From: an uncultured Chloroflexales bacterium
GTDB lineage: Bacteria > Chloroflexota > Chloroflexia > Chloroflexales > Chloroflexaceae
DNA: 64,000 nucleotides
Assembly: GCA_937918935.1 (NCBI GenBank)
Contig: CAKZSI010000025.1
Coordinates: forward strand, 1-64,000
Reading direction: 5' to 3'
The stretch's first letter is position 1, and each line of letters opens with the position of its first letter. The position numbers and the translations under genes were made by a program. The notes under the pieces were generated by a model. The model did no database searches, was not told where the DNA came from, and was given only the letters and a program-made list of their open reading frames with translations. Shown piece by piece: positions 42,579 through 50,528 of this stretch.

Positions 42579-42912
42579 CCGCAAACCTCTCTGTGGTTGC
42601 GGGGAGGCGCAGCCTCGCCGCGCCCCTCCCAGTGGTATCCTCACCCCGGGTATCTACAGTAGCACACAACCATTACGACCATTGCCTTCCGCCGCGCGGT
42701 AACGGCGTGGTAAGCGGGTTGGGCGAGGAAGCGCCCCGGCAGTATCAGACCACCTCGGTACCGGCGCGCTATAGGCGTTTATCCGTCCAGCCGCTATACT
42801 ATACACTGCCGTGCAGGTGCACGCCTCGTTGGAAAAAATATAAAGAGTTTTCCAGCGAGGCCTTCCCAAACCCTCCTGTGCATGGCCTGTTTTCACTGTA
42901 GACTGGAGACGT
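42579..42912. other. Divergent promoter region with palindromes
   Basis: About 330 bp. A GGGGAGGCGCAGCCTCGCC-type hairpin near 42601 and TATACT elements near 42795 and 42800 on the plus strand are visible. No gene is supported. Confidence 0.4.
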
Positions 42913-44536
42913 ATGCGCTACCTGCTCGATCAGCAATCCTACGACGACATGCTCCGCCGCAAGAGCCACTCGCGCGATTGCTACGTTCGCGATACCGAAT
43001 ACCTCCACCATCTGTCATCTGTATATTGACGGGGTCAAATACACCCTAGCGCGCGCGGTCTATGCTTGCTTGAAAGAGGCCCAGGCAAGGAATGACACCG
43101 ATGCCATTCTTCACCTTCAGATGCACGTGCAGGATCTCGAGCAGTTGATTGCCGAGGCGCGGGCGCGAGGCGAGAACATCGCCAGTCTGCGCGCCATTGG
43201 CGACCCGCCCCCGTCGGAGGATGAGGCGCGCCCGCAACTGAACAACAGCTTTCTGCCGGCCACGCCCCAGACCCTGGCGGAGACTGGCCTCAACCGCACC
43301 TTTCTGACCGAGCACCTCCTGCGCGTGCTCTACAACCGCGGTCGCATGACCGGCCGCGAACTGGCCGATACGTTGTGTCTCTACTACCGGATCGTTGAGG
43401 AGTTGATCCAGGATTTGCGGCGGGTCGAACAGATTGACATCATCGGGCAAAAAGGCTTCGGCGACATCAACTACGAGTATGTGCTTACCCCCCGCGGGCA
43501 GGAGGCCGCCCAGGCCGCTCTGCTGAAGACCCAGTACGCCGGGGCGGCCCCCGTGCCGATTGACGACTGGATTGCCTCGGTCAAGGCCCAGACCGTCAAG
43601 AACGTCAGGGTGACGCGCAAAAACATCCGTGACGCCTTCCACGGCCTCGTCATTGATGATTCGATCCTGAACTCGGTGGGCCCGGCGGTGAACTCGGGCG
43701 CCTCGGTCATGCTCTTCGGCTATCCTGGCAATGGCAAGACCACCATCGCCGAGCGCATTACCCACCTGATGGGCGATGATATCTTCATTCCGCAGACGAT
43801 CTATGCCGACGGCGCGATTATCAAAATGTACGACGCGATTGTGCATGAACCGCCAAAGCGTCCGTGGGATGACCAGCAAGAGTACGACAGGCGCTGGGTG
43901 CGCATCAGTCGCCCGGTGGTGATTGTCGGCGGTGAGTTGACCCTGGAGCAGTTGAACCTGATTTACAACGAGGCTTCAAAGATCTACGAGGCGCCGTTCC
44001 AGATGAAGGCCAACTGCGGCATCTTCCTGATTGACGACTTCGGGCGGCAGCAGGTGCGGGTCTTCGACCTGCTCAACCGCTGGATCGTGCCCCTGGAGAA
44101 GCGCTTCGATTACCTCAACACCGTCACCGGCCAGAAGATCCAGATCCCCTTCGACCAGTTGATCATGTTCTCGACCAACCTTGACCCAAAGGATCTCGGC
44201 GATGAGGCCCTGTTGCGGCGCATCAAGTTCAAGTTCGAGATCATCGATCCCACCGAGGAGCAGTGGCGCGAGATCTGGAAGATCATGTGCAAGGTGCGGG
44301 GCGTGCGTTACGACGATCGGGCGCTCGATTACCTGGTCAGTAAATGGTATAAACCGGACAACCGCCCCTTCCGCATGTGCCAGCCGCGCGACATCCTCGA
44401 CCAGTTGATTTCAATCGCCAGGTACAATATGGAGCAACCGGCGCTCACCGCCGACCTGCTCGATGCGGCCTGTCTGACCTACTTCCCCAGCAAGGAAAAG
44501 AAGAACTTCGGGGCCAGGGTGCGGCTGGATCTTTAG
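42913..44536 (+). CDS. AAA-family ATPase, frame broken by a 7-bp duplication
   Basis: The restored protein would have about 538 residues: a short N-terminal domain, a winged-helix-like region (LLRVLYNRGRMTGRELADTL, IVEELIQDLRRVEQIDIIG) and an AAA ATPase domain with Walker A FGYPGNGKTT (from about 43715) and Walker B GIFLIDDFGR. The ATG at 42913 with GGAG upstream opens MRYLLDQQSYDDMLRRKSHS, but this frame ends at 43029. From 43016 the coding continues in the next frame (HLYIDGVKYTLARAVYACLK). Between them CATCTGT is present twice in tandem (43009-43022), and removing one copy joins the frames perfectly. The ORF from TTG 43070 would lack the N-terminus. Function unknown; the ATPase core itself is intact. 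Confidence 0.8.
43009..43022. repeat. 7-bp tandem duplication causing a frameshift
   Basis: CATCTGT at 43009-43015 is repeated at 43016-43022. One unit gives the in-frame reading LHHLYIDG; two units shift the frame. Confidence 0.85.
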
Positions 44537-44674
44537 ATATGGTTTACCCGTATACTGGACGGGTACAGGCAGGCTCACGGATGGTACAACGTCCGCCCAC
44601 GGCGGTGGGGGTCGGGGCTTGCCCCAAAGAGGTTCACTGGCTATACCAGCGGGCGTCGCCTCCTTGCATCCCAT

Positions 44675-46441
44675 ATGTGCTGCCTTCACATCGTGAGCGG
44701 ATCAGTGACCCCATCAGCGAACCAGCCCCTCTCTACAGACAATCGTCCGGCCGTAAGGCTGCGCCTGTCACTGCCCATAGCGTTGCTGGCACTGCTGTAC
44801 CTGGGGTTGCGCCTGCCCGCGCTGCTGGCCCTGCCGCTGTTCAACGATGAGGCGGTCTATCTGGTGCGGGCGCGGTTCTTTCCGGCCATGCTTGGCACAC
44901 CGGGGGTTGCCGGTGCGACGCTGCCGGATGGCAAGCTCCTGCACGAACTGGCTCTGGCGCTCCTGGCGCTCTTGCCGGTAGATCCGCTGATCCCGGCGCG
45001 CCTCCTGTCGGTGGCCTGCGGCCTTGCCACGGTGCTGGCGCTGGCCGCGATGGGACGGGCACTCGACCATCTGCGGGCTGGCGTGCTGGCCGGCGTGCTG
45101 TATGCTCTCGCTCCTCTCGCCGGCCTGCACGACGTGCTGGGCTTGCCCGACAGCATGCTTACTCTGGCCAGCACACTGCTGCTGTGGGCCAGCATCAGCT
45201 TTGCGGTGCGCCCGGCGGCAGGCAGACGTGAAGCGCTGCTGGTGGGGGCGCTGCTGTTGGCGGCAAGTCTGATCAAGCTCTCAGGGCTGTTCCTGTTCGC
45301 CATACCGGTGCTGGCCGTTCTGCTGCTAACCGCCTCCCCTACCGAACGCTGGCGGCGCCTGGGCCTGCTGCGCACGACCCTGATCGTAGCCCTGCTCGGC
45401 CTCGCCTGCCTGGCGCCGTTTCACTACGGCGCCGCCGAGCGGCACAAGCTCGGCACACAGGAGTCGCGTAGCATCGTTATGCAGCAGCATACGACCGCCG
45501 TCGGTGACTGGCTGGTGCGCTACCTGCCGGGACCGCTGCTGCTCGCCCCGATGCTGGTGTTGGCCCTACACGGCTCGCGTCGAGCGGCGCCCGCTGGCTC
45601 GCCCAGTAATGACCCTGCGCGTCACGCGGCCGATCATGCAGGAAGCGACGATGACTTCACCCCCCTCACGGCGAGCGTGGAGAACCGGGCGGCTTCGGCA
45701 ACGTTGTCAGTCGTCGCTGACCGGGCCGCGCCCACGCTCCGGGTCATTGAAGCCGCAGATGGGAGCGCAAACGGCGCCGCGCCCGGAATGGCCCGTCTGA
45801 CGGCGTTCCTGCTGTTGGCGGGATTGGCGGTGATTGCCTGCTTCGTGGTGATCGGAAACGCGCTCTACTCGCGCTACCTGTTGCCCGCGTGGCCGCCACT
45901 GCTGCTCGCCGCCGCGCTGGGAACGACCTCTCTCTGGTCATCCGGGCGCGCCCCGCGGGTCGTGGCGTTGCTGGCGCTAGGAGCGGCGGGCGGGTGGGGA
46001 TTGCTCTGGATGGGATGGTTCGCAATGGCGCCGTTGACCGCGCCGCTGGCACGCCAGGATCGAGCACAGTATCTGGAAACGTGGAGTGCGGGCCATAACC
46101 TGGACGCCCTGCTGGCCGACGTGCGTGCTGCTGCCACGGTGCATAGCCATGTAACGCTGGTGAACCACCATCAGCCGCGCCTGGTCCATCTCGCCACGCT
46201 ACTCTATTTGTCGGACGTGCCTGCCGTTCGCCTGGCGGAAGTGGACCTGTCTGCGCCAGACGCGTCCGCGCGCCTGGCAGATCTCGTTCGCAAAGAACCG
46301 GTGCTAGTGGTCATTGATAAGCAGGAAGCGGAGGCTTTTGCCTTCAACGAACGATTTCCCGATCTCCGGCTCCTGCAGCGCTATCCCCACCCCGGTGGGC
46401 GCATGGCCTTTCTGCTCTTCGAGCAGGACCAGGCGCCCTGA
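44675..46441 (+). CDS. GT39-like membrane glycosyltransferase (PMT/ArnT type)
   Basis: 588 residues with about ten membrane helices. The first extracytoplasmic loop carries LPLFNDEAVYLVRARFFPAM, with the DE pair typical of GT-C enzymes that use lipid-linked sugars, followed by LLHELALALLAL and the DVLGLPDSMLTLASTLL helix. A long hydrophilic insertion (about 300-375, rich in Ala, Asp, Ser) separates two groups of helices. The C-terminal ~150 residues are soluble. ATG 44675 lacks a clear Shine-Dalgarno; a GTG at about 44693 is possible. Substrate unknown. Confidence 0.78.
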   Translation: MCCLHIVSGSVTPSANQPLSTDNRPAVRLRLSLPIALLALLYLGLRLPALLALPLFNDEAVYLVRARFFPAMLGTPGVAGATLPDGKLLHELALALLALLPVDPLIPARLLSVACGLATVLALAAMGRALDHLRAGVLAGVLYALAPLAGLHDVLGLPDSMLTLASTLLLWASISFAVRPAAGRREALLVGALLLAASLIKLSGLFLFAIPVLAVLLLTASPTERWRRLGLLRTTLIVALLGLACLAPFHYGAAERHKLGTQESRSIVMQQHTTAVGDWLVRYLPGPLLLAPMLVLALHGSRRAAPAGSPSNDPARHAADHAGSDDDFTPLTASVENRAASATLSVVADRAAPTLRVIEAADGSANGAAPGMARLTAFLLLAGLAVIACFVVIGNALYSRYLLPAWPPLLLAAALGTTSLWSSGRAPRVVALLALGAAGGWGLLWMGWFAMAPLTAPLARQDRAQYLETWSAGHNLDALLADVRAAATVHSHVTLVNHHQPRLVHLATLLYLSDVPAVRLAEVDLSAPDASARLADLVRKEPVLVVIDKQEAEAFAFNERFPDLRLLQRYPHPGGRMAFLLFEQDQAP

Positions 46442-46767
46442 CGGGTTTCCCCGCCGCTTCGCTCTGGATACAGCGCGGCCCGTTCCTGCCGTTCGGCGAG
46501 GTGCGGCCAGGCTGGATCAACGTCCTGAGGGCAGGCCCCAGACTGCCATGATGCCCCTATCGGGCGGTGTAGCCGCCCGACCTCCGCGTGGTGTAGCGTC
46601 GCCTTCTTAAACCCTCCCTGCTGGCGGGCTTGCGGCCGGCCCGCAATTTCTCGTGTGCGAAAAGACAAGTTTGGCATTGCTTCAAGATCGCGCGGTTCTG
46701 GAGCGTCTTTTCCGCGTCCATACGCCCTGTGCGCTTTGTCACAATTTCGCGCGGATTTTGCACAGGT
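46442..46767. other. Spacer before sdh promoter
   Basis: A TCGGGCGG hairpin near 46558 (a family-2 variant) lies in this region. From about 46640 the composition becomes AT-richer towards the sdh promoter. No gene seen. Confidence 0.4.
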
Positions 46768-46796
46768 TAGACAAGCCGATCACGTTAGGATATAAT
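46768..46796 (+). promoter_or_regulatory. sdhC: sigma-70-type promoter of sdhCAB
   Basis: -35 TAGACA (46768-46773, one mismatch to TTGACA), a 17-bp spacer and a perfect -10 TATAAT (46791-46796). It leaves a leader of roughly 140 nt before sdhC. Confidence 0.8.
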
Positions 46797-46944
46797 TCCT
46801 TAAGCAAGCACGTGGCGTCTAACGCATCTGCCTTGAACTCAACCCCCGCCGTGACAGGGTGGCAAGCCGTTCACAACCTGTTGTGACGGTCTACCATAGA
46901 GTTCTGTTCCGATTGCGCGAGCATTGCAAGGGAAGGAAGCGACG

Positions 46945-47673
46945 ATGACAGGGGTCCTCACGCTTTACCGGACGTCGGTCGGCAAAAAGGTGATCATGGC
47001 GGTCACGGGATTTATCCTTGTCGGTTTCGTAGTCTTCCACATGTACGGCAACCTGAAGATGTACCAGGGGCCAGAGGTATTCAATGCCTATGCGGCGGGG
47101 CTGCGTGAACTGGGCTATCCTGTCTTCGGGCATGAGCATCTGCTGTGGGTGGCGCGCGTTGTCTTGCTGGCCTCGGTGGTGCTGCACATCTGGTCGGCCA
47201 CTATGCTGACGATGCAGAGCCAGAAGAATACCTTCGCCAATGCCGTGGGAGGACTGAAACGTTACGGCGAAAAGAAACGCCAGACGGGCTATGCTGCCTA
47301 CACTATGCGCTTTGGCGGCGTTCTGATTTTCCTCTTCATCATTTATCATCTGCTGCACCTGACCTTCGGGGTCGTTGGGTATGGGCCTGGTGAGTTCAGA
47401 CACCCGCACGGCGGTGAGTTCCAGGTGTACAGCAATGTGGTAATTGGCTTTCAGAACCCGCTGATCTCGGGCTTCTACATCTTTACGATGATTTTCCTGG
47501 GGCTCCACCTGTACCATGGCGTGTGGAGCATGTTTCAGACCCTCGGCCTCAATAGCGCCGTTTATACGCGATTGCTGCGCGGTCTGGCAATTCTGGTGGC
47601 TCTGGCGGTGGTGATCGGCAACATTTCGTTCCCGATCGCGGTGATGGCCGGGATTGTCGGCCCGGCAGCGTAA
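46945..47673 (+). CDS. sdhC: Succinate dehydrogenase cytochrome b558 subunit
   Basis: The membrane anchor of succinate:quinone oxidoreductase, 242 residues with five helices, belonging to the single-anchor b558 type that binds two hemes. Conserved His residues are in VVFHMYGNLKMYQG, VVLHIWSA, FIIYHLLHLTFG and LGLHLYHGVW. One protein replaces separate SdhC and SdhD. ATG 46945 follows GGAAGGAAG; an ATG seven codons earlier is less likely. It is the first gene of sdhCAB. Confidence 0.94.
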   Translation: MTGVLTLYRTSVGKKVIMAVTGFILVGFVVFHMYGNLKMYQGPEVFNAYAAGLRELGYPVFGHEHLLWVARVVLLASVVLHIWSATMLTMQSQKNTFANAVGGLKRYGEKKRQTGYAAYTMRFGGVLIFLFIIYHLLHLTFGVVGYGPGEFRHPHGGEFQVYSNVVIGFQNPLISGFYIFTMIFLGLHLYHGVWSMFQTLGLNSAVYTRLLRGLAILVALAVVIGNISFPIAVMAGIVGPAA

Positions 47674-47694
47674 CTGGTGAGGAGCAGTTGAGCG

Positions 47695-49668
<1,974 letters not shown>

Positions 49669-49672
49669 TTTT

Positions 49673-49730
49673 AGATTGTAGATTGTAGATTGTAGATTTT
49701 GTACAATCTGCAATCTACAATCTCCAATGG
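49673..49730 (+). repeat. TAGATTGTAGATT repeat forming a hairpin between sdhA and sdhB
   Basis: Three-and-a-half tandem copies of GATTGTA are followed by their near-complement (AATCTGCAATCTACAATC), giving a stem of about 18 bp with a 6-nt loop. The CAATCTGCAATC part recurs at about 7447. Its position inside the operon suggests an effect on sdhB expression or mRNA stability. Confidence 0.7.
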
Positions 49731-49745
49731 GGAGCGATAGTAACT

Positions 49746-50528
49746 ATGAAGCTCACTCTCAAGGTCTGGCGACAGAAAAATGGCAAGACGCCGGGCGAGT
49801 TCAAGACCTACCAGGCCGATCATGTTAGCCCTGATATGTCGTTCCTGGAGATGCTTGATGTGGTCAATCAAGATCTTATCATAAAGGGTGAAGAGCCGAT
49901 CGCCTTCGACCATGACTGCCGTGAGGGCATCTGCGGTATGTGCTCGCTGATGATCAACGGCGTCGCCCATGGTCCCAAGCAGGCCATCACTACCTGCCAG
50001 TTGCACATGCGCAGCTTCAACGATGGCGATACAATCACCATCGAGCCGTGGCGCGCCCTGCCCTTCCCGATCATTAAGGACCTGGTGGTGGACCGGTCGA
50101 GCTTCGACCGGATCATCCAGGCCGGCGGCTACATCAGCGTCTCCACCGGCTCGGCCCCCGATGCTAACACCATCCCGGTGCCTAAGCCCGACGCCGACAA
50201 GGCCATGGACGCCGCCACCTGTATCGGCTGCGGGGCCTGCGTTGCGGCCTGCCCCAACGGCTCGGCGATGCTCTTCGTGGCTGCCAAGGCTGCGCACCTT
50301 AGCTTCTTGCCCCAGGGCCAGACGGAGCGCCATCAGCGGGCGGTAAACATGGTGATGCAGCAGGATCTCGAGGGCTTCGGCAACTGCACCAACATCGGCG
50401 AGTGCTCCGCCGTCTGCCCGAAGGAGATTAGTATGGATACCATCGCCCGGCTCAACCGCGATCTGATCGTCGCCTCTCTCAAAGGCATCGAGCCGACGGT
50501 GCAACCAGCCAAGGCGAAGGCCAGCTAA
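49746..50528 (+). CDS. sdhB: Succinate dehydrogenase iron-sulfur subunit
   Basis: 260 residues with all three clusters. The [2Fe-2S] ligands are Cys58, 63, 66 and 84 ([10 protein letters not shown] and TTC). The [4Fe-4S] motif is Cys159-162-165-169 ([12 protein letters not shown]), with the last ligand(s) for it and the [3Fe-4S] cluster among Cys214, 220 and 224 ([15 protein letters not shown]). It carries electrons from SdhA to the b558 subunit. The ATG is preceded by GGGGAG. Confidence 0.96.

Follow-up and report, generated by a model that had tools for sequence, protein, structure and literature searches.

A tandem CATCTGT duplication in the N-terminal frame of an AAA ATPase gene linked to succinate dehydrogenase genes in a Chloroflexaceae genome

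The window analyzed here is a stretch of 64,000 nucleotides from the genome of an uncultured Chloroflexales bacterium. This genome (G000) is Chloroflexaceae-like, measures 4.6 Mb, and is 99.99% complete. A gene encoding an AAA ATPase lies upstream of sdhC-sdhA-sdhB (42913-50528), and all the features of the gene described below are on the forward strand. ATPase and sdhA genes share a contig and lie no more than a few kb apart in at least 25 Chloroflexaceae genomes; their proximity suggests that the ATPase has a function connected with succinate dehydrogenase, for instance in its assembly or regulation. A gene for a mannosyltransferase-like membrane protein (44675-46441) resides between the ATPase and sdhC in the window, as in G003 and G004, two genomes of the same genus, and is missing at this place in G002, a further member of the genus. 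At 49672-49728, between sdhA and sdhB, nearly four copies of the heptamer TAGATTG are followed by an inverted TACAATC-like array, and variant heptamer arrays (AAAATCC-like) occupy the same place in G002 and G003. A GC-rich 62-bp tandem repeat, made of three copies with an 89% match, is located at 2702-2889.

The ATPase gene features a Shine-Dalgarno-like GGAG a few bases 5' of ATG 42913 (42903-42912). The stretch around this motif, agactggagacgt, is shared unchanged by G002 and G003, and TGGAGACGT directly precedes the ATG. The first 34 codons read from here, MRYLLDQQSYDDMLRRKSHSRDCYVRDTEYLHHL, correspond to the conserved N-terminus of the family, the consensus start of which is MR-LLDQ-SY-EM in the orthologue alignment. 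The sequence CATCTGTCATCTGT, found once in the window, at 43009-43022, consists of two adjacent CATCTGT units, as the first-pass annotation had noticed. Unit 1 spans 43009-43015; unit 2, at 43016-43022, is a 7-base insertion relative to all relatives, placed at codons 33-35. The frame shift falls after codon 34: unit 2 appends the residues SSVY, and TGA 43027-43029 closes a broken N-terminal frame of 38 codons (42913-43029), which bears out the earlier claim that two copies break the frame. Beyond the insertion, the ATPase continues in a frame displaced by 7 bases, the stop of which ends at 44536. Judged from the sequence, the two-unit allele has no N-terminal domain that is both intact and in frame with the ATPase body.

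The remainder of the ATPase frame (43025-44536) is intact. It measures 503 codons plus the stop, and includes a winged-helix-like stretch, a Walker A motif (GYPGNGKT), and a Walker B motif (GIFLIDD). The 488-aa ORF listed at 43070-44536 begins at a TTG, a start imposed by the ORF caller; 56 open codons precede TTG 43070 in the ATPase frame, with no ATG, GTG or TTG among them. This TTG has no Shine-Dalgarno sequence and is not kept as a start codon in relatives, which carry CTC, CTG, ATG, TAC or ATC at the same position, which rules out a family-wide start further downstream. The possibility that relatives begin at the downstream TTG, raised by the first-pass annotation, is likewise excluded by the orthologue N-termini. 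An ATT codon of the ATPase frame overlaps the premature TGA (ATTGA, 43025-43029), and may be a candidate weak restart. The gene had been described as switched off. The wording is too strong, since 503 codons of the ATPase frame are open, and poor synthesis from a weak internal start is possible.

By body similarity and by its Walker A and B motifs, the window gene can be assigned to the same orthologous group as the genes with which it was compared. Sixty Chloroflexales orthologues, window included, were read at the N-terminus. The duplication was found in none of the 59 others covering the start (0/59), all four same-genus genomes included, and in 55 of the 59 the frame opened by ATG is uninterrupted over the first 50 codons. 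The genes of G001-G004, the same-genus genomes, align with that of the window over their whole length, with a single 7-base gap at the duplication and no other indel; all four have one unit, which settles the comparison with close relatives that had been proposed. Over residues 26-538, the window ATPase is 95-96% identical to those of G002 and G003. Residues R21, D22, C23, Y24, R26, Y30, H32, H33, Y35, D37, G38, V39 and Y41 are invariant in 20 aligned orthologues. Because N-termini are one-unit, in-frame and conserved across orthologues, ATG 42913 is taken as the ancestral start, and the ancestral protein, as deduced from the alignments, measures 538 aa. Single-unit relatives read through in frame, in agreement with the earlier claim that one copy lets ATG 42913 read into the ATPase, and the ancestral gene carried one unit. 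The insertion is regarded as real because relatives show one 7-base gap and the in-frame N-terminus is conserved order-wide. The repeat alone is not unusual, as perfect 7+7 tandems are at chance level in the window (5, vs a mean of 4.8 expected from first-order Markov sequences). The gene should be annotated as frame-broken, and its start placed at 42913, the true one for the family, instead of at TTG 43070. G037, which is 99% complete and assembled in 4 contigs, has no orthologue, and the gene is therefore dispensable in the order. G012 and G062 were not scored as losses, since sdhA lies about 1.3 kb from the contig end and the ATPase gene would be cut off.

Residues 1-94 make up a conserved, confidently folding N-terminal domain. 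Modeled alone, residues 1-98 form a single folded module (pLDDT 88, pTM 0.80), in which a strand (2-4), a helix (7-15), two further strands (33-36 and 39-43) and two helices (44-56 and 60-82) are predicted. The full-length model is poor (pLDDT 49), and no conclusion on the ATPase part was drawn from it. In the predicted module, the second strand is where the frameshift lies; TTG 43070 corresponds to residue 51, inside one of the helices, and a product initiated there would be without the sheet. No Pfam family matched the N-terminus beyond a marginal match in 1-2 of 19 members, no solved structure related in sequence to the module was found, and fold matches are unconvincing (E 2.9 for the top Foldseek match; Z 3.4 for the top VIA match, at 4.7 A rmsd over 63 residues). 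Such absence of a family or fold match does not make the module a new fold. The ATPase body, Walker motifs included, scores below every curated Pfam and NCBIfam cut-off. Identity with the IetA/IteA anti-phage ATPase was considered and rejected: the NCBIfam IteA model gives 25.7 bits vs a cut-off of 510, in the P-loop region only, and the PADLOC IetA model 27 bits, at the P-loop only, with no full-length match. No second intact copy of the gene was found in the G000 genome, where the only other match is a paralogue of 46% identity (G000:C30:183035-184357) without this N-terminus. This paralogue and its relatives (about 460 aa) align from about residue 92 onward only, and the core ATPase can therefore exist without the N-terminal module.

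Frame breaks were surveyed by comparing translated ORFs of the syntenic contigs of G001-G004 with the window, over about 35 comparable genes (roughly 23-63 kb). The ATPase gene alone shows such a break in isolation; the handful of further differences flagged in the comparison comprise an ORF reaching upstream of a gene and one in antisense orientation. The dN/dS of the ATPase body, calculated for the window against G002-G004, is 0.046-0.049, as against 0.040-0.052 among those relatives. Values thus fall within or close to the range of the relatives, and relaxed selection on the window branch was not seen. The local assembly is of good quality, and the gene body is not decayed. Since dN/dS of the body is normal and no other isolated frame break was found, the break may be recent, the body may have stayed in use, or the second unit may be a rare local error.

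Among the three options offered by the first-pass annotation (phase variation, recent mutation, assembly error), a recent mutation fits best, as relatives are all one-unit and the body evolves at a normal dN/dS. A recent tandem duplication has probably broken the frame, leaving the ATPase absent or scarce, and N-terminally short. We infer that the duplication exists in the living population, where the second unit may be a minority allele, and that it arose by replication slippage, the simplest route by which a second CATCTGT would be inserted at codons 33-35 of the 538-aa gene. Ribosomes starting at ATG 42913 would terminate at TGA 43027 after a peptide of 38 residues. The ATPase part could be produced only from a weak internal start, either TTG 43070 or ATT 43025, which overlaps the stop. 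The product would be absent or scarce, and would lack the beta-strands and the first helix of the conserved N-terminal domain, with presumable effects on protein level and function. Loss of one unit could revert the insertion; signs of frequent reversion were not seen. If real, the allele is a natural test of the purpose of the N-terminal domain in the sdh-linked ATPase of Chloroflexales.

Assembly or sequencing may have created the second unit, living cells having one unit and a normal gene. G000 is a draft genome in 85 contigs, the body is under normal constraint, and unbroken purifying selection also fits a sequence that is unbroken in nature; moreover, the N-terminal codons show few substitutions and no further decay. 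An artefact is nonetheless unlikely. Usual sequencing errors are of the homopolymer type, and a clean 7-base tandem copy does not resemble them; the finding that about 35 syntenic genes contain no further isolated frame break lowers the odds of an assembly error. Alternatively, the ATPase may be switched reversibly by slippage, being on with one unit and off with two. A tandem copy within a reading frame can be lost precisely, and reversible frameshift indels and variable repeat copy number have been reported from Mycobacterium tuberculosis (PMC8339072, PMC12817950). However, the locus has just two units, not a hypermutable tract of several to many, heptamer tandems occur at chance frequency in the window, and unit number does not vary among close genomes, the second unit being confined to the window gene. 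In addition, this gene beside the succinate dehydrogenase genes is not of the surface or defence kind usual for contingency loci. The phase variation suggested in the first-pass annotation thus finds no positive support, and we regard such a switch as very unlikely. Programmed frameshifting was tried as a further candidate and rejected. RNA folding at the site is not stronger than in shuffled sequences (z -0.07), the window needs a shift opposite in direction to that needed in G024 and G020 (see below), and the stop context, UAU UGA C, matches that of prfB in UGAC only, the P-site codon being expected to re-pair badly.

Lesions at the N-terminus have been identified in other orthologues. G024 (L046/L098) and G020 (L099) miss the same single G after GCGCGCG, at codons 46-47, which results in a -1 frame break. 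ACG replaces the ATG start in G004 (L004/L055), and ATA replaces it in Chloroflexus islandicus G036 (L038/L097), the Shine-Dalgarno-like sequence being kept in both. These cases, the continued constraint on the body in G000 and G004, and the alignment of the 460-aa paralogues from about residue 92 only, are what would be expected if the N-terminus were dispensable, several lineages having lost or weakened it and using a shorter ATPase, like the paralogue family. Against this stands the strong conservation of the N-terminus in most genomes. G020 was discounted as an error-prone assembly because its sdhA and nuoH are frame-broken too, whereas G024 does not look error-prone; in C. islandicus, ATA may act as a start, and in-frame TTG and GTG codons are found upstream. 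Frame breaks in the first 50 codons were compared with those in the ATPase body, sdhA and nuoH, using approximate denominators and leaving out the abnormal start codons of G004 and C. islandicus. The N-terminal excess has a p value of about 0.001 when every case is counted, about 0.005 when G020 is dropped, and 0.085 once the window, from which the question arose, is dropped as well. The excess is suggestive, and tolerance of N-terminal loss is a lead rather than a result; dispensability of the N-terminus appears distinctly improbable. A more far-reaching idea, to which we give hardly any credence, is that the N-terminal domain acts as an on/off or dosage knob in evolution, its translation start and first 50 codons having been broken or weakened time and again, perhaps reversibly, by different lesions in Chloroflexales lineages, with a core ATPase left beside the succinate dehydrogenase genes.

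A recent ordinary duplication remains the preferred reading. The case on its own brings no new mechanism to light, is a further instance of an already known kind of event, and is of low interest unless mixed unit states appear or the other N-terminal lesions prove real. Contingency loci, in which simple sequence repeats vary by slipped-strand mispairing, similarly feature tandem copies within a coding frame, the number of which sets the frame. In contrast to the window locus, which has two units and no observed variation in any relative, they carry many units and vary between or within strains. Reversible frameshift indels and frameshift scars have been described in M. tuberculosis (PMC8339072), in which phase-variable repeat copy number has also been proposed (PMC12817950). 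The indels resemble the one described here, as a small frame-breaking change hits a non-essential gene, leaves the rest intact, and is reversible in principle. They differ in that thousands of genomes and checked reads were available, while the present case comes from one assembly, and no restored or mixed state was seen. Neither precedent makes the window locus a switch. ATPases encoded beside sdhCAB in Chloroflexaceae (e.g. L052 and L032) are products of the same gene, with 72-96% protein identity and the same neighbourhood in at least 25 genomes. In these relatives, the 538-aa frame is intact and holds a single CATCTGT-equivalent unit, whereas the window gene has two units.
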